Assembly: GCA_037903355.1 (NCBI GenBank)
Contig: JBAJFE010000038.1
Span: 496,001 to 560,000 of the forward strand
Source: Trichuris trichiura
Taxonomy: Eukaryota; Nematoda; Enoplea; Trichinellida; Trichuridae
DNA: 64,000 nt
Direction of reading: 5' to 3'
A model generated the notes under the pieces. The model had not been told where the DNA came from. It made no database searches and saw only the letters and a program-made list of their open reading frames with translations. Shown here in pieces: positions 6,342 through 53,913 of this stretch; position 1 is the stretch's first letter; each line of letters begins with the position of its first letter. The position numbers and the translations under genes were made by a program.

Positions 6342-9300
6342 CTAAAGAGTGCTCAATGAAAGAAGTAACAGCCAAAGCGAAGTTGAGTTAGTAATTATAA
6401 GAAGATAAGTTCCACAGAATGCTTGTTGTTTCTATCCTAACCTTCTGTACCAAGCAAGCACCGAAAACAGAAATGTAAACAATTGTCAACTTGAATTATC
6501 ATGCTGAAATCTTTCCCCTTCGCACTTTTTGTGTGACTGCGTAAGACGGAATTGAAACGCAAAAAACACTGTACAGAAACAATGCACAAAGTTGCTTTCG
6601 CAATCCAGTGAAGTTGAATAACGAAGGCTACTTAGTAACAACATAAAAATCTTTTGCAAATCAGGTTCAGTAACGTTAACTTATTAGGCGCTCCAAAACA
6701 CAAAATGTCATATCAGCTATCCGGTTATCTCTTTCTAAGCAGCTGTGAGACTGAACTGTCTTTCTTAGAGTACAAATTAATTTTTTTACGGTCATCAGTA
6801 ACCGCGTCATTAAATGGACAAAGGTTCGTTTGCCCCCGTTCGCAAAGCAGCGTGCAAAAGGCAGTAATACATCGCCGCCTACCGCAACTTCTTTCCTCGT
6901 ACTGTGAACAGAATCAGTTGCCGTAACGGTGAAACTAAAATGGTGGTTATCCGTTCCATCCGAAATTTCCGTCCAGTTTGCACAGCTGAGGAGTCCAGTT
7001 TCGCGGTTAATCAAAAATTTGCTAGAATCGTCCGTAGCACTGTTTTCAATGAAATACGAAACGACTGAAGTTGTGTCTGGGTCGACGGCAGTAATGAAAC
7101 CAATTTCGCAAGTTTCGCCAGTCTCTGGCCTCTTTAGGTAAAACAAAGCCGGCGAACCCTCTTCTTCAAAGTGAGGCGAGTTGTCATTTTCGTCCAACAC
7201 GCTGACAATTACCAAAGTTGAGTCCGAACCGACCTCAAGCAGATCTGCAAAAAAAAACAGGCACAAGTAATTGCATCGCTGCCTGGTACAGGCAGCGTCC
7301 TGCGTGTTACCGCTAAAATTGAATTTCGCTGGCACTTCTCTGGCCATCCTAGTCGGGAACAAGGAACATTGAACAACTATAACGTAAAGGCTCTGGTTTT
7401 CACGGTCAAGCGGTACTGTCGTGTAAAGCTGTCCAGTAATTTCATGTATTGCAAATCGGCCTGGAGAGAAATATGCGAACTTCATCAAAACAAACTAGAA
7501 CGCACGCCAGCCAAACAAAAAAGTTATTAGTAGGAAGATTGGTGATGAAAGCAGGTGTTATTCAGAGTAACAATATACCTTTATCACCGCTCCTCAGCTT
7601 GTAGAACGTAGGAAGATCACTCCTGTTGAGTGAACAGTTCAAGTTCAGTAGGAATTGCGGGGGAGGAAGATTTTCATAAACACTCGTCCAGTATTCCTTT
7701 TCCACGAACGCCGACTCATTTGATCGTGAGGCATAGAACAACTCAATTCCGTATGACAGCCCCATTTCAGTAAACCTGTTTACAACAAGTGTGGCAGCGG
7801 TCACTAAGGACAGCTGGTTTGTCGGCATTTTTGCCAGAGTGGAAGGCAAAGTACCTATAAAAAATGCTCATCCAGAGGAAGCTTTGTGTCTTCATTTATT
7901 TATTCTACCTCTTTACCGTTGACTCTGTGTGGTGCTCAGCTTTAATGACCTCTTGGCCCTACTCAACGCGCCCCTCGGAGCCAAAAACTAAGCCAGCCAT
8001 CACATACTGCTTTTACTTATGCCTAAGCCTATACATAAGGCTTCTGCTTATGTAAGGGAAGAACCAGAGGGCTGAAAATAAGATGCCCGCTACGATGGGA
8101 GCTTTGTTTAGGCTCCGTAATAGCGGGCTAATAATTGGTGGAGGTATGCGCATTGAGGGGCCATCGAATATGAGCACCACGTTGACTGAAGACCCAAAAG
8201 TTTACTTTTCAAAGATATTGTTTCAGAGACTATAACCAATTCACAAAAAAAAATTTTGTGCATGAATTCCTTTCAAACTGTATGGTACTCGTCAGTCATA
8301 GCCGAAACTCAAAACAGCATTTCAATTGCCGCAAATTATTGAGGCTCCAAGTAGCATAGAACCTGTTCTTGCAAAGAGATGCGTTACCAACTTACCTTAC
8401 AAATTAAACTCTGTAAGGCTTGCTTAAGCCTCACTTGGCGTTGCTCAAAACACAGAGAATCATATTGAGACGGGAATTCCATTAACTATTAACAGAATAG
8501 CTCGAATTGGAAGTACACTCGTTTATAACGGGCGCGCATGTTTCTACTGTAGGTAATGAGATGAGATGACCCGTTAGAATAGTTACTTTCAAGGTAAACA
8601 TAAAAGGTAAATGAACAAAATTTAGCTCGATTGAGGTAAAAGAAAAAATACGTTCCACTGGCAGGTTGAAATCTGTACAAACCTGGTCTGGAAGTTAATA
8701 AAAGCTTTGGACTGTGCTCACTGAGAAATGATACGTTACTACTGGAAATCTGGGATTCACAGTTATCCTCGAGCAGAATGGATATCTACAAAAGTAAAAC
8801 TAGGAATGAAGAAAGTAAGGTACACGCTAACATTTGCTTCTGCTGAGAGAGAAGGTCGGCCAAGGTCAGATGCCCTCACGGTAATGTGACTTTCTGAGCT
8901 TGCTATATTAGCCAGGGGATATTTATTTTTAATCATGCCTACAGTGAGAAACAATAAGGAAGAATAGCGAAACAGTCGAATTTTACTATACCATTTTGAT
9001 CAATGGAAAATAAATCTTGGCCAACAATTAAGTCGTAGGTTACGACACCATTGAGACCGCTATCCAGGTCAAAGGCATGAACACGCCCAATCTGAACATA
9101 TAGGAAGTTTCATGCACATATTTCTTGCTCATGCCTAATTCAACTCACCGTTATATTGACATCTTTTCCATTGGTGACGTTTAGCTGAGCTGGAAGCTGA
9201 TCAAAAATGGGAGCGTTGTCATTAACATCCACAACTGACACTAATACAGATGCTGAGCTGCTGAGAGTAGGAAGTCCATGGTCGAATGCCTACAAAAAGA

Positions 9301-15300: not shown

Positions 15301-18300
15301 TATTCCCAACCTTGAACCAACACCGCTGGGTCCTAAAATTTTACAGTAACCCTTGCGTTACTGGTGCTATGACGCACCCTCCATTATGAGCCACGAGTAT
15401 GCGGCCTCAAGAAAATGAGGTGGATTGTCGTTTACGTCCAGTATTGTTATTTCGACCGTTGCCGTGTCCTGAAAACGAAAAAAAGCTTAGCATTATACCA
15501 AACTGCCAGTTTGTTGAACAGTTTTACGTATCCTCCAAAAATAAAATTTGTTTTCAACGCCTTACTTCAAAGAGCCAATCACAGAAACTGTGGGTACCCG
15601 AAGCCAATCCAGCATGCCCCTCAAAACAACATTTAAAATATTTAATTAACTCGTAAAAGGCTTCATTTAAACTTCGCTGTGAGGACTATCCCGAGATGAT
15701 CCACATTACCTGCTGAACGGTGTTTTCTCATAGCCCAAACCTAAACTTTACAATTGAGGGAAAACTGAAAGAGAAAAATATACCGAGAGGTTCCCTTTGT
15801 CAGTGACCATAATTCTCAGCCGAATGCTTTGTTCAAGCTCTCGATCGAACAAACGCAAAGGAGATTTGATAAGGCGTCCAAAATGATCTATTTCTACTAA
15901 GTCGTTGAATTCACCATCAAGAAGGCTGTATGTAAGGTTAGTATCAGTTGCATCTTCATCTTTAGCCAGTAGTTCCAACAATATCGTACCAGGGGCGCAG
16001 TCCTGAATGAGAATGATTGAATACCTTAATTAGTGTACCTATTAAACCTGACCTCCGGAAATGAAATACGGTGAAAATGATGGTCAAATTGTGGAGCGAA
16101 TTCATTTATATCCTCAACTTTAATTCGCATTAGCGTCACAGCAGTGGAAACACCATCAGAAGCGAATACCTATGGCGATGAAACTATGAAGGACAAGCCC
16201 ACCGAACGTATCTAGACTTACTTTCAGACTAACAATACCCTGCTGATCACTTGACAAACTCTCTAGATCAACCATTTGACTAAATACAATGCAGCCGTCT
16301 GCTTTAATCAAAAAAAGTTCGTTCTTTTCCAGTGAAAACGTTACCTATTAGTAATAAACACAGTTTGGTGAGTCTTTGTTCCATTTAAGTGTACCTACGT
16401 GTGGAGGTAATGACGTTCTCAGTGCCACACAAAATCCTAGATGCTGATTAGCTGGTGTATTTTCACTAACAGAAGCATAAAACACAGGGGCAATGAACTC
16501 CAAACTCATGCGCTTCACGTCAGGAGCATGTACGCTAATGGTAACCTTAAGCAATAAAATTAAAGTATGAAAATTTATATTAGACTTAGTTTATCACCGG
16601 CACATCAGAGTATAGTGATTCATTGCTTGGGTTTCTGCCTCTAACAATGCACTTTTTGATCAATGAAAAGTTGCTACAGAACTCTGGCGTTGAAAACAAA
16701 ATACCCTAAGAATGACTTCAAAAAAGCAGCAATACAACAACTTAGCCATCCTACCGTAACATTATCCATCTGTAAACCAAAAACTGCTGGCAGCAGTTCG
16801 TAAACTGCGCTGCTATTCGCCAGTACGGCATGGAACCGTTTCAAAGGACTATATTTCCTTAAGCATGCTCTAGCTTGAACGTAGAAATGGAGATTGCAAA
16901 AAGCAGGATTGCTAGAACTGGATCTAGTGAATCTGAACCGCACAGTGTGCGTTGCATTCAACGAATGCTGCCCATGGTCACGTGCGACAAGCGTTACGAC
17001 ATAATCGCCATCAGCAGGTCTTACGGCAAGCGTCAAGCGCCCTGTGGCACCGTCAAGTTGAAATACAGCATTGTCGCTTTGTATTAACTTGTAACTGATT
17101 GCATTGTTGCCGTCTAAGTCACTATCAGCATCCGTAGCAGAAATATTTAGCACTATATTTCCTGGTTGAACAAAGGCGGGTAGCACCATGCGATCTGGAA
17201 TGATGCCGAAAACTGGAGCGTTATCATTGACATCAGTAACATAAATGTTAACCAGTGCAGGATTGGATAAACGCGTTTCAACTCCGTGATTAAGAGCCTG
17301 CACGAGGAAGGTGTAATTCTTTGTTGATTCAAAGTCCAATAAAGCTGTTGTTCTCACAATTCCAGTAATAGGGTCGATAGTGAATGGCAAAGAAGCATTA
17401 GAGGCAAAACGATATGAAATGTTTCTTCTTTCGTCACTTGAGAACGGTACAGAGGCACCGATTTGAACTACAGCACTGCCCACAGGGATATCCTCAGGTA
17501 CTGTAGCTGAATATTTCGGCCGAAGCAAGCGAGGCGGCCATGTATGGCAGTCTGTCACATTGATAATGATAGTGGAGTAGCTCTCGCGTGATGGAACTCC
17601 GTGATCAAAAGCGACAATAGTGAAGTTGTATAAACTGGGCTCAGATAAAACTTCAGACGTCAACACCCAGCCAGTATTATAATCTATAGTAAAGGGCTGG
17701 ACTGACCGTTTTAATGCGTAGCTAACAAGACCATTCTGACCAGCGTCACGGTCACTAGCGAATACTTGGATAACCCGAGTCCTTTGTTCCGCATAAATGG
17801 CTATTGTCGCCTCGTAAACAGATTCGTTAAACACAGGGTAATTATCGTTTTGGTCGATAACTATTATCTGAACAAGAAAATAGTGACAAGTTGCGCCTGC
17901 TGGGGTAACATCACGCTTATAGCAGCCGGAAACATTTAACAGTAGATCCTTGGTAACCTCGTAATCGAATGGTTCTGTCACAGACATCCAGCCAGTATGA
18001 GGGTCAACATAGCAGCAACGTTGCTCTGGATTCGTAACCATATAGTAGACGTTATGAATTCCCGTTATATTCAAAAAAAACTATCGACAAGAAATCTTAT
18101 CCATGAAGAAAGTTTTACGAAAACGGCAGCAGACCTGGTAAATGTTGGCCGGTGTTTCATTTTCGTGCACAAATACAACTGCGTCCACGGTATCGTTTCG
18201 ATCCACGGTTTTCTCCATGCTTTTCAGTTTATAGGAGACATCAGGCAACAAATTCTGAAATTCAAAAGCCAGTTAGTTGCACAAGCTATTGCCGTAAAAT

Positions 18301-21300
18301 GCTAAAATGTTAAACAGCTGAAACGGCTGCATTTGAAACAAATCTCAGACGTAAAATTGAACTCATTGAGCTTACAGTTTTAAATCCAGTTTACGAAATC
18401 AGTTACCCAAGTTATGAAAATGTAAATAAATTTGAAAAGAGCAGACACTGGAAAAAAATCAGCTGCTCGTTAAAGTACAACCAACTTAATTTCTGTGAAA
18501 CCTGAAACCTGGTCAGACGTAACGTAAACGTTTGAAAATGAAGATTTATATACTCGTTACAAAGCATTCTACGCTGCACGCATGGAAAGGCATATAAATC
18601 CAGGTACACAGATTGTTAAAAATCTGACTGACGCTGACGAAATTCCGCGTACGCAAGCACACCTCTTTTGTAAACAATGCAGGTCAAGTTATACTCAGAT
18701 TCTTCGTGCACGTAGTGGAAAGTCTTATAGGAAGTTCGCACGTTTCAAACGCGCAGACGAAGCATGCACATAGTTTTAAAATGTTTAAACAATTAAGACC
18801 AACAGTTACGCGTTTTCATTAAAGCATAAAATATATCCACATACTAACCAATTTCCATATTCAAGTACGCTAGCTACATGCTACATGGTTTATTTTTGCG
18901 CGAAAAATCTCAAAACCTTCGGGATGCGTTTGGTAGCATCATCAGCGCCTTTGTCGGACAACGATGGTGACGACAGGATCAGACGCATCTTAAAACTTTG
19001 CTGACGATCACTCGCATGCGCATTAAAAAAGTGCGTTTAAATCTATACAAGAAACCAGTTTTCTTTTTCTCCTTCTTAACGGATTTTTAAATTTTTTCTT
19101 CTAAAAAAGTTTTTCGCGGAATTTCCAACCCGCATTTGTATTCGTAAGTTTCGGCAAACTCAGAGTTTGTAAAAAACGCTGTAAGTCTTGTAATAGTAAA
19201 TGATAGGCTGCTAATATTATAAACTGGTTTCTAGTTTCTTTTAAAAAATTTTTTCCATGGAATTTCCAACTCGTTTTTTAAGTAACGTTTATGCATGTTA
19301 AGCTCTCCAAGAATTTAAGAAATTGATTTCGAAAGTTTCTGAAACCTTGAAAATGTGATGTTTTGTACGGGGCTGTAAGTTTTCATATTAAAGTGTCGTT
19401 ATCACGGATCATGTGTCCCGTTGGAATATAAATTGAACATAAATTTTCCGGAGCTTTTGGGCCTGTCGCGACCCGTCTTTTGGGTTCGTCACTCATCGTT
19501 TGACCGCTGAAGACAGGTCGCGACAGACCCGAAAGCTCCGGGAAATTTATGTTCAATTTACATACCAACGGGACACATGATCCGTAATAAAAACACTTTA
19601 ATATGAAAGCTTCTGAAACCAACATGAACGATTGCAAAACAGTTTAGATACAAAAGTTGGTAGTGGTTCAAAAATTCAAGCGATGATTTAACTACGGTGG
19701 TACCCAATTCGAGTAATACAGAGAGAAGCGTTGAAAATCGACAATGAAACAGATCATTACGTAAAAAAGTGTTACGTACGTAGGCATCAGTAGCTGGAAG
19801 GCGATCGTTGTTCAGTGCCTTGGCACGGTATGTAACGGCTACTATTGCAGCAGAGCATACGCCAGTGCTTGTGCCATTATGGGTCACAACAAAATCAGAA
19901 TTCAACGGCACGGTAACGATCTTAACGGTTGAAGACCATAAGCAAGAACGCGAAAAGAACGGGGCAGTCTCTTGGGATTTCTAACTTTGAAAATTACTGG
20001 TCTGCCGCTAGACATTGACGCATTCGAATCTCGCACTAATACTCGATCAGTTTTCGGTTCCAGGTAGAACAAATCTCGGTCTTTCTCCTCCTCTGTTTCA
20101 ATTGCAAACTTCGTGACTTCCTAAACACAAGTTGTGGTAAGACGAACAAGTAATAATCCTAAATTAACCTGACTAGCATATAGGCGGATAATCTCAGCCC
20201 CCATAGTGGCTGACACAACAACATTGATTCGGCACAGTTGAGGAACTGACTGCGACCCAACAAAACGAAAGTGCACCTTAGCAGTTGCGTTCATTTTTGG
20301 GTTATCCCGTTGCGTAGCCTAGAAGCATTATGAAATCGAAGTGTTTGCCAGACAAAAGTCAAGAGGATCACTAAAACCTTAAGTTCAACGTCCATAGAAG
20401 AATGTATCATGTGATACGGGATTGTACTGTTCAGAAAAATTGTTCCAGTGTTTTCGTCAATCCAAAACGGATCAGCATCTAAGTTGACTGACATTTGAGC
20501 AAATGGGCTCGATTACAGAAATCCCACCTTGCAGAGAAAAGATAATCGGTGCGTTGATTTGAGAATCCCCGTCTCTTGCACTGATTATAGGCGATATCTG
20601 GATTACAGAACCAACTAGTGTATTCTACGAAGAAAAGGAATAAGATTTCTAAAATAGCACTTACACACTAACCACAGCGACGCTTCCGAAATAGTGCGTT
20701 GAGCTCAATACTGGAGGTAAGTCGTCGCTGTCAATAACGTGAATCGTCAACAAAGCCATGCTAACCCTCTGTCTACCCCAAACGGGGTTATCCTGTCAAT
20801 GTTCAAACTAATAAAGTACACGCTGCTACGAAAGAACTGGCTTAAGACAAACTTTCGCAATTATGTTTAGACGGTATACACGGTCCCCGAAGTCATAGTC
20901 GAGCCTTTTCAGCAACCTCAGGAAAATTATTCTTGGAAGCTGATTTCTTTCCCACATGTTGCTAGCGAGAGAAAAAACAGGTGGCAGAGATTCAAGCTTC
21001 CAATAATAATCTTCTAAGGTTGTCAAGGAAAACATATTCTCTTCACCAAGAGCCTACGAAATTTCGATAAGAGAGCACGAAAAGTACTAACAGCAATGAA
21101 TTTACGTCAATTTCAAAAGAGATATTATACAACGTAGCTGGATCCCAATCGACACATATGATTGGTGTTTTTATTAGTACATTTAAGGGGTTATCCTGAA
21201 AGGTATTGCACGTGAGCTGACGCAGTTGTGTCCCAGAATACTCACCTCAGCTACTTTCACTTCGTAGGGCAACCCGTACCACTCAGGGGCATGGCGGTTA

Positions 21301-42259: not shown

Positions 42260-43944
42260 AATTTTATAAAAATCGATTCCTGCGCGAGTGTAAGCTTGGT
42301 ACGTAAAGCTATAATCAACGTCATTCGACTTCGCATTTTATCGAGACAGTTTATGTTCTCATCTGATTTATTTTACAGTAAGTTAAATTGCTGAAATAAA
42401 GAACAAAATTAGTCAACATTTCAACAGATGGAAACTTATTTTCCTTAAACATTGTTCGTTTGGAAGAAATCAAAAGAACCAAAGTTTCATAATTACAAGG
42501 CTTTCCTAAACCAACCTATTACTTTTGAGCGCTGTGAAGACATCGACTTCACGGCTAGCAATCTGAATGCACTACCTGCGCTCTATGGTTGGGTATACGT
42601 CTATTTCTAAAGGTTTACTGGCTTTCCTCTGATTCATTTTATCAGTACTGAGAATTAAACATGTCAAGCTTATCACATTTAGCGTCAACTCACTTAAATT
42701 CAACTACAAGAATAATCGGGCATGCACACGTGTATACCTCAAATTATGACGCTTCGCTAATATTTTAAAGTGGGATCTGTTTGATTGCTTAAACTTTCTG
42801 CTGAAGTTTTTTTTACATTCGCAACTGCGTGCACATATGAGTTAATTTAATGCTCGGAGCTTTCGGGACGAATGTCGTCATTTGCAAAGATCAAACTAAC
42901 GTAATGCAGTGTGCGGTACACTGATTTACGATTACCCCCGTTTGAATAATCCTGATTCACGCAAACGCCGCTGCTTACTGTGACGTTTTTTTATTTATGC
43001 TGTCTTTCATATTTGTATCACGAAGTAAAAACTGGGATGTTTAGAACAAATTTGCAAAATTTCATAGGTATAGTGGACGAAGCAGGAATAGGGTTTGAAA
43101 GGGCTTACATAAATTTTGAAAAACTTCTACAACAGACAAAACGCAACCATACAACCTACTGAAAAAATGTTCGGTGAGAAGAAGAAAAGTGAATCGATGC
43201 GACCAAGATCATTGTTCCAATATTTCAGTAAACTGCCTCATTTATCCCAACCTTCAGCAGACCACCTTTAACATTTGGTCACCATCAATATTGTGGCGTT
43301 ACTCTTGCTCGGCAAACATTTCATGACTCAACGAAAGCTCAGACTATTATTAACTTTGTTCAGCAATAAGATTTTCAGGACTTTCGCCTGTGGGGATTAC
43401 ATGGCCATTTGCTGATGTATCATTTTATGTGCCCTTTACTTGTACTTTCTGGTGGAAGCTCCTTGTAATAAGGCCCGTAGGTGCAGTTGCCAAACGCTAA
43501 ACGACTTGTCTAATCTGTGCCAAAAAGTATAAGAGCAGCTTGGCTTACGTTCATCGTTGAAGATTGCTTAAGACACCTGCAAATCCAAAATTATAGTAGA
43601 AGGCAGCGAGTTTACAATGAAGAGCTCGAAACCATGCTGGTAGGATACAACCTGTCAAACTGCCTACGTTTGGCCTTATAGTTGGCTGGCTGTAACCATT
43701 TTGCCTTCGCCTTCAGAAATCAGTTCCGTACTGTCAATTGAATGTCTGACGCTGCTGGTTCCCTCACCAGTACCCTTCACATTGAAAAAACCTGTTCGCT
43801 TTCAGCGCCGCCTCTATACCATTTCGCCAAACCATTGCTATCCTGTCCTTTCCTGTCTATCATGACAGAGATACTAGACAATTGATATAGATACTGTTAG
43901 TGTATTACCTCGTATTCCTGGTTTTATGTAAATTTATCCCTTTT
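42260..43944. other. Intergenic, no gene seen
   Basis: AT-rich. No exon chain or repeat ends recognised. Ends at the inverted flank of the Penelope-like element. Confidence 0.5.
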
Positions 43945-45600
43945 TTTGTATTTCCAATATGATGGCCTGTGTATGCCGTTCTATGGTTTTATATTTATGT
44001 AACTCCATTTCTTCACATGTTCTAAGCGCTCGTGTATGCAATCAATTTAGCAATTGGAGCGCGCGACAAAGTTTGTCCATAGTGCACTTATTTCTGCTTT
44101 TTGATCCTGACTGTATGTCACGATGTGTCTAATGCGAAACGCTTCTTTAATTCTTCGTAAGCGTACGTTATTTTCATAGCATAAGACCTTTGGTTGAAGA
44201 GGCTGGTCACAAAGTGCCGCATGTTCCAACGCAGCGGAGACTTGAATAGCTTTTTTCATGGTAACACTTGGATCCAGCATCAGTCTTCCGCTTTGTGCAA
44301 TTACTACTGTTTTTAAGAACGGTTTTTGCGTTCTTGTAACTTGCGAGCTTTTTTATGCGTTCAATGAACCTATGTTTCAAAGTACTGCCTGTTTCCCGAT
44401 GTAGATTCCTGAGCAAGCACATTCGACCGCGCAGAATAACCCTTTTTTTTGTTTGCTAGGATTTTCGTTCTGTCCTTACGAAGAATTGACCCGAGATTGG
44501 GAAAACTGTAGTTTACGTGCATCGTATGGATCTGCGCGCATAAGGCTGCTAGCACGCAAAGGCTTGGCTTTATCTTTATTGAGGAACAGCAACGAACTGA
44601 ATATAAACAAGAATGTCTTCGAACATACAACCTTCCTTCGTCCTACCGCCGATCACCACTCTCTCGTGGTCTATCCTTCTCCTTTTATAATCCCATCCGC
44701 GGGGTCCGGCCAGGTCGCAAAGCCATTGGCTAAATGCATCTGTTTTCGACATGTGCATTGTGTCATGTGACATGGGGAACGTCGTCCAGCGCTGTTTACG
44801 TCAACAGCGCAAGCATCGTTGCCCTCCAAAGTCAAACCACCGTTTGCGGAGCCGGACCCATGGTTATCCGCCACAGAAACTCTTGAAAAAGACTCGGAAG
44901 CTTAACTGTCTGCCTAGTCAGACAATCTTTTCGCTCAATTTTGCAACACAGGGGATCATTAAACATGAGCTATGCAAAATATTTGGTTCAAGCGATTCTC
45001 GGTTGCGAAGTTCGGTTTGGAACACGCGGTCAATAAAAGATTTCGTATAATCGTTTTTGTAGAGGATCTTGCTAATGTAGTTAAGCTCTGACTGGAGATA
45101 TTCGGGATTCCACAAATTTATTGCTCTATCGATCATTCTAGAAAGAATTCCACGCATTACCAAATGCAGGTGATGCGATGAGAAATTGAGGTACTGGTCT
45201 GCATGTATGTGGGCTTCATGTAAACTCTAGTTTGTGCGAATAATCAAGGCATCCAGAAAGGGAAGAGTTTTACTTTTTTCTTTTTCCATTGGGGAAACAA
45301 TTTGGTTTGGGCGGATGCTGTTTAGGAAGTGTAGGAATTGTTCTTCTTTTCGATTTCTTATAATTACGAAGATGTCATTTACCTTGACGGGTCTCGTTTG
45401 ACCCGAAAGCTCCGGAATGTTAAAAATATTATCAACGGGACAAACTTTCCGTAAAAGAAACTCGAGATGTCATCTGCATACCTTTTGAAAAGGCGTGGGA
45501 CGTAGAAAGACGTAGAAACAGAATAACATATATATATATATATATATATAAAACCATAGAATGGCATACGCAGACCATAATATTGGAAATACAAAGATGG
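43945..45600 (-). mobile_element. Penelope-like retroelement remnant
   Basis: On the minus strand the degraded coding region runs from the RT palm (RLFKRYADDI, about 45500-45460; then FVIIRNRKEEQFLHFL, SIRPNQIVSPMEKEK and TLPFLDALIIRTN at 45375-45230). It continues through the RT thumb (NPEYLQSELNYISKILYKN, about 45110) to a GIY-YIG-type endonuclease (CSGIYI about 44410, ETGSTLKHRF about 44390, SAALEHAALCD about 44240, RLRRIKEAFRIRH about 44150). RT plus C-terminal GIY-YIG is the defining PLE architecture. At least four frame changes and several stops make it dead. The remnant is bounded by inverted copies of a 50-bp sequence (43949-43998 and 45550-45600). Confidence 0.85.
45379..45465. mobile_element. 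87-bp repeat insertion splitting the RT catalytic motif
   Basis: AGATGTCAT at 45370-45378 is repeated at 45466-45474. Removing the insert and one copy restores the RYADDIFV motif of the reverse transcriptase across the join. The insert contains GACGGGTC, a short loop, GACCCGAAAGCTCCGG and CAACGGGACAAACTTTCCGT, the central part of the dispersed PLE-terminal repeat. It lacks the CTGAAGA half of the core and the outer GTACCAAGAAG block. Confidence 0.8.
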
Positions 45601-45814
45601 AATAAATTTGCATAGAACACGGGAAAAACACGAAACGATTTAGCATGTATGAAACAACGTTTACATGGTAAGATGGTTCAAGATATACGCAACCAGAAAC
45701 GCAGTCGGCTGGCAGACAGAGAAAACTTCAAAAAAAGCATGACTTTAAAACACTGTTTTAAAGCGCTAAAACTGATTGACTGGCGATTTCGCTCCTTCTA
45801 ATTACATTAATTTT

Positions 45815-45970
45815 AATACCACTGAGGACAGGTCACGCGCTGCTCCAAAGCTACGAAATCTCATCAAAAGTTTTGTATTTTAACGGGACGAACTGCGTAA
45901 GAAGAAACAACTGAAACATGAAAACATTTGCTCCTGTACCAAAAAGCTTTATTTTCAAAGCATCTTTATG
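45815..45970 (+). repeat. PLE-terminal repeat copy
   Basis: ACCACTGAGGACAGGTCACG (a degraded core), then CAAAAGTTTTGTATTTTAACG, GGGACGAACT, a GAAACATGAAAACATTTGCTC block, and CCTGTACCAAAAAGCTTTATTTT. Same order of blocks as the 38.1-kb and 51.5-kb copies. It lies just upstream of the PLE remnant and could be its terminal repeat. Confidence 0.7.
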
Positions 45971-50825: not shown

Positions 50826-50856
50826 CTGATGACGGGCCACGGCGAGGCCCGAAAGC
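50826..50856 (+). ncRNA. Hammerhead-ribozyme-like core (best match in window)
   Basis: CTGATGA (50826-50832), C, GGGCC (50834-50838), loop ACGGCGA, GGCCC (50846-50850), GAAA (50851-50854). This reproduces the conserved CUGANGA, stem II and GAAA parts of a hammerhead ribozyme with a perfectly paired stem II. The extra C at position 10.1 would pair with the following G and weaken the fit. I could not identify a convincing stem III with UH cleavage site or a stem I. Ribozyme activity is therefore unproven. Confidence 0.35.
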
Positions 50857-50929: not shown

Positions 50930-51665
50930 AAATATTCCATGTCAAGTTTCTTTTACGGAAAGTTTGTCCCGTTGATAATATTTTTAATATTCCGGAGCTT
51001 TCAGGTCAAACGAAACCCGTCTTCAGCGGTGTTAAAATAAAGCAATGAAGTAACGAAATTTTCACGGTGTTAAAATGATGTAATGTGTGTTGCGCGGGGA
51101 TGTTTTAACTGTTTAAAGTCGAATGTTCTAAAGTAGATTTCCTTGTGTCCTCCTCTTCTGTCTGTCAGCTAACCATTTTTTTGTTGTTGTGGATATATGT
51201 TGTTCCTCAGAAATTCCATTTTAAGGTTTTTCTCCATTTTTGTTGGTTTTCATCCGTAGTTCTTTGTTTTCTTTGCGTGTTTAGTCAAGTGAGCAGCATT
51301 TAGAGCGGGTGACAATGTTTGCCCATAGTTCATTTATTTCTGCTCCTTGATCTCTTGAAATTTCTGAAGAACAGCATATATCCACAACAAGAAAAATGGC
51401 TAGCTGACAGACAGAAGAGGAGGACACAAGGAAATCTACTTTAGAACATTCGACTTTAAACAATTAAAACATCCCCGCGCAACACTCATTACATCATTCT
51501 AACACCGTGAAAATTCGTTACGTCATTGCTTTATTTTAACACCGCTGAAGATGGGTCTCGTTTGACCCGAAAGCTCCGGAATGTTAAAAATATTATCAAC
51601 GGGACAAACATTCCGTAAAAGGAACTTGACGTGAAACTATACGGTCCTGTACCAAGAAGTTACAT
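50930..51665. repeat. Large inverted repeat of PLE terminal sequence
   Basis: The left arm (about 50930-51215) and right arm (about 51365-51665) are inverted copies over roughly 280 bp with few mismatches. Shared blocks are TTTACGGAAAGTTTGTCCCG, TTAATATTCCGGAGCTTTC, GTCTTCAGCGGTGTTAAAAT, GCGCGGGGATGTTTTAA and CAGCTAACCATTTTT. The right arm holds the core CTGAAGA (51545) with GGGTC/GACCC and GAAA. The 150-bp spacer contains the end of a PLE reading frame (- strand SRDQGAEINELWANIVTRS), homologous to the end of the 44-kb copy (SQDQKAEISALWTNFVARS). Confidence 0.85.
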
Positions 51666-51676
51666 TTACAGAACAA

Positions 51677-51958
51677 AATATTATTATTATTCTTCTTCTT
51701 CTTCTTCTTCTTCTTCTTCTTCTTCTTCTTCTTCTTCTTCTTCTTCTTCTTCTTCTTCTTCTTCTTCTTCTTCTTCTTCTTCTTCTTCTTCTTCTTCTTC
51801 TTCTTCTTCTTCTTCTTCTTCTTCTTCTTCTTCTTCTTCTTCTTCTTCTTCTTCTTCTTCTTCTTCTTCTTCTTCTTCTTCTTCTTCTTCTTCTTCTTCT
51901 TCTTCTTCTTCTTCTTCTTCTTCTTCTTCTTCTTCTTCTTCTTCTTCTTCTTCTTCTT

Positions 51959-52039
<81 letters not shown>
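51677..52039. repeat. (ATT)n-(TTC)~99-(TTA)n microsatellite, about 360 bp
   Basis: ATT units at 51677-51690 pass into about 296 bp of uninterrupted TTC (GAA on the minus strand) to 51986, then TTA units to about 52039. It lies directly at the outer end of the PLE-terminal repeat. The plus-strand frame of polyserine followed by polytyrosine is an artefact of the repeat. Confidence 0.97.
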
Positions 52040-52041
<2 letters not shown>

Positions 52042-53913
52042 ACGGCGATTTTTGTTTGAACTATTCTACTGGAAGTTTCCATAAACCAGTTTAAAATAGC
52101 TTGCTTGAGTTTTTAAAAACAGTCTTCAAAAATAAACTTTCACTCTCATAAGTGTCCGTACAATATTGAAGAGCAGTTAAGTACGGATTGAATCGATGCT
52201 AATTTGCTCATTTTGATACATTGCTGATAGCTTCACTCATTCTCCAGTCTTTCAGCATAGGCTGACGATGGAAGAATTAATGCACTGAAGTTTCCAACTT
52301 CTCCAGAAAGCCTTTTTCAAAGCAACAGGAAACTTGTCGGCTTACAGCGTGAAATTGCATGGTATGCTTTCTATTCATTCTGCATACAATTGCTAAAATC
52401 ATAGCTTCTTGTAACGAGGACGCAAATATTCATAATGAGCTATCTGTTTCTGGTACAAAGCCTATGGTATTGGAGAAGCTCAGCCAGACGGAAAGGTCGC
52501 AGATGATTACAACGCAGTGCATAGTACTCGCTGCTTAATTTTGTGCTCTGTTTTCATGGCGTTCCTTGACCTCTCTACAACGTCTAAGTGAATAATGGAA
52601 GGACGACAAGCGAGAAAATCAGGAAAAAAAGAGAGCTGAATGAGAGGTCAGCGATTTTCGTAATTGGAAAAAATATATTTTTTGGGTTGTTTCAACTCAG
52701 GTTGCGATGACACGTTATAGAGTCCATTCAAAAAGATCGACTGGCAGCAGCGCATGTAGTTTCCGAAATTTGTACAAGCTTCATTGACCTTAGCCGCCCT
52801 CCACCCGTCATAGTTGACGGTGAGAGAGTTTACGTTGTGTAAAGAGCGTCGCTGACTCTCTCTCTCTCTCTTTTGGTCGCTACTTGTAGTACCACAGATG
52901 AGATACGACGACATTCGTAAGGCATTTTCAAGAAATGCAAATTCTCTTCCACTCTGGCCCAAAACTTTAGCTGAATCCAGCAATTGAAAACAGCTTTGAT
53001 GTGTTGTACTCATCCTTTCTCACTATTCTTGACATATGCAAATACCTTACGTGTTCCTGGTATCGAGGAGTCCAAGTATCCTGACCCCTCCAGTACAAAG
53101 AGCAGATTAAATATGTTATTTTCTAGAAAACAAAGAGCACTGAATAGTTAGAATTCAGAATTGTCATCTTGTGATCGCTGATTGAGTTTCCAATCGTAGT
53201 CCTTTGATCCTCCCACATCAACCTGCGTAGTAAAGGAGGTGCGACTCCTGTCGACTCTCAACTCACTATCCTGCTGTTAAAACTCTCAAGCGCTTTGTAC
53301 CGAAAGTACAAGTTGTTTCAGCAACAAACTACAAAGCTACAATTACGTTTATTAATTGCGATGCATATTTCCTGAATACATTTGCAGAAGTCACAAGAAA
53401 ATGTGAATGAAAAAATAACCATTGCCGAACGAGTACAATATAACAGGTGAGTTATCACAGCACGTCCAGATAGACGTTTCGAATGGAAAAGCCTGAACCT
53501 TCATTCTACCTATACAAACAGAAACGCCATTCTGACAGTATTGCAAAATGATTAAGGTAGGTTAATTAAATTGAAGCGAATAGCTTTACAGCGACTGGAG
53601 TAGTCAGTAAAATGATGCAAGCCACGCAATGGACGATGTGCTTGACGAAAGAGATTCATGAACGAACAGCTTTCCAATACTATACCGAGCCATTCCAGAG
53701 CGCCGATCCTCGTTTAGCTCAAATGCTCTAAGGAAGTGACGCTGCGCTGCGGTCAACGACTGTCCATTAGACGCGTGTATACGAATATCTGCAGTAAAGC
53801 TAATATGGGAACAAGGAAAGATTGAACCGACAGGGAATCACCAACTGTCAGGTCGATACAATTTGTAACAGTGCAAAAAGATACTCTAAAAAGGAAACAG
53901 GAGAACAAAATTA
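52040..53913. other. Between the microsatellite and lin-54; one unassigned ORF
   Basis: The minus-strand frame 52648-53013 (MSTTHQSCFQLLDSAKVLGQ, then SGREFAFLENALRM) is 121 codons with an ATG and a mixed, protein-like composition, but it contains a CT-repeat-encoded stretch and no recognisable domain. A second CTGACGATGG word lies at 52262. The rest shows nothing supported. Confidence 0.3.

Follow-up and report, generated by a model that had tools for sequence, protein, structure and literature searches.

The locus and its interrupted host element

The window, that is, the whole 64,000-nt stretch of Trichuris trichiura DNA analysed here (assembly GCA_037903355.1, contig JBAJFE010000038.1, positions 496,001 to 560,000 of the forward strand), contains an aldehyde dehydrogenase exon at 588-1196 on the plus strand and cadherin exons at 6676-7494 and 16674-18080 on the minus strand, the second of which encodes a FAT4-like domain. 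At 45383-45464, on the plus strand, a short repeat interrupts a fragment of a Penelope-like element (PLE), which occupies 43882-45498 on the minus strand, spans the reverse transcriptase (RT) and endonuclease region and matches locus L045 at 77-79% and loci L012, L054, L056 and L058 at 69-77%. This host is itself a head-to-head copy, its minus arm facing an inverted plus-strand arm (pLTR and tail) at 45542-45959. Translated separately, the minus-strand flanks of the insert give ...VPRLFKRYADDI and ...(V N)DIFVIIRNRKEEQFLHFLNSIRP (...RLFKRYADDI and (N)DIFVIIRN...), the PLE RT motif, with the codons for Y-A-D-D-I at 45466-45480 on the minus strand; the active-site motif read here in a preliminary description of this DNA is thereby borne out.

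That description also placed the insertion exactly in the catalytic motif. The position is right, but the target is a dead fragment: the host is 5'-truncated near 45498, about 33 bp upstream of the RT motif, its flank translations contain stops, and a second insertion, a 368-bp repeat at 44508-44875, interrupts a region across which the relatives are contiguous. The 5' truncation alone means that the hit on YADD disabled no complete RT gene. Since the host is a 5'-truncated and interrupted PLE fragment, the landing in YADD looks coincidental, and targeted insertion into an active RT was rejected on the same grounds. The 368-bp repeat looks like a solo LTR, because 12 of the 40 scored genomic places of this repeat form six same-strand pairs 4,408-4,409 bp apart, as LTRs would; it is flanked by a duplication of up to 6 bp.

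Target-site duplication and uniqueness of the insertion

The exact 9-mer AGATGTCAT is found at 45370-45378 and again at 45465-45473, bracketing the inserted segment. The exact 9-mers are separated by 86 bp (45379-45464), not by the 87 bp first given. The 9-bp duplication that had been described is exact on both sides, but its full size is probably 13 bp (45370-45382 and 45465-45477), as judged from the overlap among relatives and from the usual footprint of the PLE family. L058 and L059 each align to the left and to the right of the insert, and the two alignments share 13 bp, at subject positions 1495-1507; for L054 the overlap is 11 bp. The two 13-bp copies, AGATGTCATTTAC and AGATGTCATCTGC (on the coding strand GTAAATGACATCT and GCAGATGACATCT), differ by two substitutions; L056 has the uninterrupted 13-mer GTAGATGACATCT (coding strand), from which each window copy departs by a single change, so that the difference between the two copies is accounted for. 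On the 13-bp reading the insert measures 82 bp (45383-45464). The CTT with which it then begins (45383-45385, plus strand) matches neither the target nor the element when 5' junctions are compared, and is possibly filler.

Against this duplication it counts that the exact repeat is only 9 bp long, below the family mode, with the 13-bp version requiring two substitutions, and that the earlier of two flank scorings did not separate it from controls. The scoring was changed between runs, from one that rated full extension only to one that rated the best prefix, with controls reaching up to 8 both times. By full extension the window flank repeat scored 7, a value equalled or exceeded by 16 of 342 mismatched left/right flank pairs; by best prefix it scored 9, which none of the 342 pairs reached (maximum 8). 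The comparison with relatives is independent of either score and is the stronger evidence for a duplication.

All 18 relatives read across the site (L045-L062) lack the insert; L063, which is not shown across the site, was left out. The 5' junction pattern of the insert, with up to three mismatches allowed, has one occurrence in the whole genome. Together these results support an insertion that is younger than the host element and unique to the locus, and the reading of the insert as an ancestral part of the host was rejected on these grounds. Copies of the host carrying the same insert with no duplication, which the preliminary description had named as the observation that would speak against it, did not appear among these relatives.

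A Penelope-like family with two constant 3' ends

The insert was correctly recognised as part of a dispersed repeat. A genomic search gave 52 matches including the insert itself (40 scored of 442 candidates), with 50 of the 51 others listed at 93-98% identity and one at 86%, and a 35-nt core, searched with at most three mismatches, has at least 286 copies in the 72.7-Mb genome (142 on the plus and 144 on the minus strand), compared with none for the reversed control. The insert aligns at 96% identity to positions 2008-2091 of the long copy L012, which supplies the reference coordinates (ref) used below; it corresponds to the 3' terminus of the repeat and not, as had been proposed, to its centre.

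With at least 286 cores the family was sampled, not enumerated; the window and 75 fetched loci make up the sample and together provide 115 arms. Thirty-five of the fetched loci are the best matches of the repeat search and the 40 others were picked as having no partner listed nearby, so the sample is enriched for solo arms. Grouping of the matches that extend to ref 2070 with an identity of 86% or more gave 79 groups, 36 of them pairs and 43 single arms; as the pieces span 0.7 kb, some of these single arms may have a partner further out, and a detached tail piece of L022 is counted among them. Arms stop at two constant 3' ends, A, after AAACTCGA, and B, about 44 nt beyond, after the tail CATGAAACTATACGGTCCCGTACCAAGAAGTTACATTTACAAAA, with 57 arms ending at A and 58 at B (one of these 115 rows being the detached L022 tail piece). 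Their 5' starts vary, with 39 of the 115 at positions below ref 1940, 58 within 1950-1989 and 16 at 2000 or beyond, and the arms are mainly short (76 start at or past 1940) and often stand two head to head. A constant 3' end combined with a 5' end that varies from copy to copy is characteristic of reverse transcription that ends early and truncates the 5' side. The insert has an A-type end without tail (CTCGA, 45461-45465, plus strand), which in tailed copies lies just ahead of an ATG. In L105, a longer relative from another subfamily, the tail region, aligned by eye, reads as the start of the PLE ORF (ATG AAA ...), which places both the A and the B end near the 5' end of the mRNA.

The family has the traits of a PLE, namely an ORF with RT and GIY-YIG, inverted head-to-head pLTR arms with an optional tail, and short duplications together with 5' truncation. 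In profile searches of family ORFs, L054 matched RVT_1 and GIY-YIG above cut-off and L061 matched RVT_1 only; among the best 120 of 895 protein matches, the best-scoring ones are reverse transcriptases of Trichuris muris and T. suis (T. muris 50% over 95% of the query), and a PDB sequence search with L061 returned 0 chains. Of tandem pLTR-ORF-pLTR units in direct orientation, another PLE trait, the fetched sequences show two pLTR pieces in direct order, at L098. The window holds a second copy of the family at 50935-51673, an A arm (minus strand) and a B arm (plus strand) head to head with the 13-bp duplication AGAACAAAATATT; it adjoins a long trinucleotide microsatellite at about 51600-52090.

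A direct repeat flanks 30 of the 36 head-to-head pairs and measures 13-15 bp in 21 of the 36, a count made without a shuffled control; another two pairs gave 20-bp repeats that consist of microsatellite sequence. A script assigned one A and one B end to 34 of the 36 pairs, AA to one and BB to one (L097). The AA pair, L022, proved on inspection to be BA, its B tail lying behind a small extra stretch, which brings the mixed pairs to 35 of 36, against about 18 expected under independent choice, A and B being equally frequent overall. Because 24 of the 36 inverted pairs total only 137-345 bp, they are superficially MITE-like, and the repeat might be taken for one terminal inverted repeat of a DNA-transposon relic. 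The two arms of a pair are, however, unequal (A versus B end) with variable inner ends, the same sequence runs on into the RT/GIY-YIG region in L011, L012 and L042, the duplication varies in length and single arms insert alone, so that we give a DNA-transposon origin practically no credence.

A candidate hammerhead motif in the pLTR

The hammerhead consensus comprises CUGANGA, GAAA and NUH, and minimal type I hammerheads of PLEs are reportedly the subject of work by Cervera and de la Pena in 2014 and by Lunse et al. in 2017. Upstream of the A end, the family pLTR has the arrangement CUGANGA-C-stem II-GAAA-GCUC followed by the stem I partner, which makes it a candidate minimal type I hammerhead in which the core and stems I and II are present. 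The extra C between CUGANGA and stem II, found in 60 of 63 rows, is unusual with respect to the consensus. Among 61 distinct rows retrieved with the core alone, 51 form each of the first three pairs of stem I, whereas shuffles average 35.9 and do not exceed 42; with two more rows added, stem II is paired along its whole length in 44 of 63, whereas shuffles average 29.3 and do not exceed 37. As the rows are related, these shuffle controls are supportive, not decisive. In test folds L010 formed the expected stem I-stem II junction (z -1.84, 12 of 200 shuffles as good), and L017 and L007 formed other structures. An Rfam search of the window gave 0 matches at the gathering score and no hammerhead; a search of six loci gave 37 sub-threshold matches, none of them a hammerhead, mostly microRNA models on inverted repeats, which were taken as chance.

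Minimal type I hammerheads without helix III are known from PLE pLTRs (PMC7761336, PMC6466107). Going by the available portions of these papers, the family motif is like them in having no real helix III, in its location in the pLTR and in a palindrome (AGCU here) through which dimers may pair, and it differs in the additional C and in that no Rfam model matched in the scanned sequence. The insert retains a remnant of the motif at 45386-45412 (plus strand), with stem II at 45389-45393/45400-45404, GAAA at 45405-45408 and GCTC at 45409-45412, the predicted cleavage point of the motif lying between 45412 and 45413. Since the insert begins within the core, at ref 2008, and has neither the CTGAA (CUGAA) stretch nor the 5' strand of stem I, it is predicted not to cleave; the 5' end of the insert is a break inside the minimal hammerhead motif. 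Folded alone, the insert did not stand out from shuffled sequence (z -0.93 and -0.74).

That RNA 5' ends correspond as a general rule to the predicted hammerhead cut (ref 2034/2035) is not supported, in view of the 58 arms that begin at ref 1950-1989; only six of the 115 arms begin at 2033-2040 (L071 and L072 contribute two apiece, L080 and L099 a single one). Hammerhead-like cores belonging to other repeat families, one matching the insert at about 71% and one with the core CTGATGA-CGGGCC...GGCCC-GAAAGCTT, are located in the window at 19414-19594 and at 50826, which suggests that several PLE-type families may carry the motif. Another dispersed family has CCACCTCA-CTGACGA-C-GGAAC...GTTCC-GAAAGC(T/C)-TGA at L007:513, L030:3724, L031:540 and L074:622, with stem I pairs that differ from those of the main family in a compensatory way.

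Solo stubs and the identity of the insert

For comparison with the insert, a hand-picked set of 19 single-arm loci no longer than 181 bp, of which the window is one, was taken from 27 loci whose junctions had been compared, after seven longer single arms and the two-armed L009 had been set aside. When flank repeats are scored by best prefix, they lie above all 342 mismatched controls in nine of the 19 (L014, L043, L067, L068, L075, L078, L082, L102 and the window), whereas the earlier full-extension scoring had singled out seven, L082 and the window not among them. The eight other passing stubs are 71-176 bp long and have duplications of 9-16 bp; they have the A or the B end in common and start at different points. 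L068, at 71 bp shorter than the window copy, has an A end and a 15-bp duplication with 2 mismatches, L067 (140 bp) an A end and an exact 14-bp duplication, and L075 (168 bp) a B end and an exact 15-bp duplication. It had been suggested that independent copies with fresh duplications and constant ends would define a short non-autonomous element. The duplicated copies do exist, but because the eight stubs share only the A or B end and start elsewhere, the constancy of both ends failed.

These data bear directly on whether the insert might be a distinct short non-autonomous element of about 80-90 bp, SINE-like or retrozyme-like, with fixed ends of its own and mobilised by a PLE. It is indeed short, flanked by a duplication and provided with a 3' end common to many copies, and five of the 115 arms, those of L086, L089, L090, L091 and the window, form a small cluster of starts within ref 2007-2010. 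However, L086, L090 and L091 each belong to a head-to-head pair and do not stand alone, the duplication of L089 is not above control, the 5' ends of the arms are widely spread over the three ranges given above, and the 5' junction of the window copy is matched once in the genome. A SINE with two shared ends was rejected for the same reason, only the 3' end being constant. Animal retrozymes are small hammerhead-bearing repeats for which mobilisation by PLEs has been proposed (de la Pena et al. 2020; PMC7761336). Compared with retrozymes as portrayed in the accessible text of that paper, the window stub lacks the complete hammerhead that such a unit requires, has no unit ends and stands alone at its locus. 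We therefore regard a separate short element as very unlikely.

The ten solo stubs whose flank repeat does not beat the mismatched controls under best-prefix scoring may, at least in some cases, be old or be remnants of deleted pairs. They thus leave some room for the window copy having once been a two-armed head-to-head PLE copy whose B arm was later deleted, the more so as two-armed copies are common (36 pairs in 79 groups). On the 13-bp reading, though, the duplication lies at most 3 bases from the 5' break, so such a deletion would need to have ended almost exactly at the target junction, and this history too seems very unlikely.

The insert is thus, in our firm opinion, a severely 5'-truncated single-arm insertion of an endonuclease-bearing PLE, namely an 82-bp 3' stub of the pLTR (86 bp, 45379-45464, if the duplication is 9 bp). 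The insertion is real and ordinary in kind, a dead-on-arrival short retrotransposon copy and not a new miniature transposon. The preliminary description had held that the repeat was mobile as a unit of under 100 bp after the host had landed; a later insertion with a duplication did take place, but with varying 5' ends a separate unit is not supported, and the short mobility is a by-product of PLE truncation rather than a property of a separate element. Nor is such a stub unusual for a PLE terminus, as had been thought, since solo pLTRs and 5'-truncated copies are mentioned in Adineta (PMC3846280) and short products arise in vitro (PMC11167929), according to the portions of these reports at hand.

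Proposed mechanism and relation to known systems

Two published cases of PLEs provide the background, each drawn here from part of the published text. In Adineta vaga (Arkhipova et al. 2013; PMC3846280), Penelope families have inverted head-to-head pLTRs, a 31-bp tail that is optional on one of them, duplications of 8-10 bp in the cited copies, 5'-truncated copies and solo pLTRs, and one PLE has been found inserted into another. The family described here is like it in the inverted pLTRs, the optional tail, the 5' truncation, the solo pLTRs and the PLE-in-PLE insertion, and differs in its usual duplication of 13-15 bp (21 of 36 pairs). In the Anolis carolinensis element PAc (Frangieh et al. 2024; PMC11167929), each of the two target strands is cut and then extended, while reverse transcription starts at two adjacent internal RNA sites near the ORF start, the interval between which is the genomic tail; this position leads to short products in vitro, where the start site does not differ between strands. 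PAc, of the Penelope/Poseidon group, resembles our family in its ORF with RT and GIY-YIG, its hammerhead-bearing pLTR and, presumably, its two start sites with a tail and its cutting of both target strands. It differs in that its commonest start lies 111-118 bp into the ORF whereas the A site of our family is at the start codon; moreover, our family resides in a nematode, and its best protein match is 50% to Trichuris muris. The A and B ends match the in vitro picture of two internal start sites in the Anolis PLE.

By analogy, and starting from the ends, the truncation and the duplication that can be read directly in the window copy, we infer the following steps of initiation and arrest. The PLE protein would cut both target strands about 13 bp apart, the target lying by chance in the RT motif of a PLE that was older and already broken. 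Reverse transcription would start inside the PLE RNA at site A, and about 80 nt would be copied towards the RNA 5' end before arrest in the structured hammerhead region. The cDNA would then be attached, along with 3 extra bases, to the opposite end of the target, and the duplication would arise as the gaps were filled.

The near-exclusive pairing of one A with one B end may be read as one internal start site, A or B, for each end of the broken target. As both sites lie at the ORF start, an ordinary transcript started in the pLTR would yield only a leader of about 100-175 nt. The one-A-one-B rule and the start-codon position of the sites thus suggest that ordinary transcripts give rise to short leader copies, with which the 58 of 115 arms starting at ref 1950-1989 may be compared. 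Taken together, that the two start sites are used once each per insertion and that the PLE mRNA leader is a built-in mobile unit is a tentative proposal, to which we give somewhat less than an even chance. No statement of the near-exclusive one-A-one-B rule, or of one site for each target end, was found in the portions of the PLE literature searched. If the proposal is true, the hammerhead-bearing leader of the PLE mRNA would be a built-in short mobile unit, full-length copies would require tandem read-through RNA, and the window stub would be a one-ended form of the reaction.

A family with hundreds of similar copies in a small genome is a natural record of PLE integration, here consisting of 3' ends that are constant at A and B, target duplications that mostly measure 13-15 bp, mixed head-to-head arms and solo stubs. 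Such stubs or inverted pairs should not be annotated as SINEs or MITEs. The genomic record agrees with the internal initiation seen in vitro in 2024 and adds to it a testable rule, one start site per target end.
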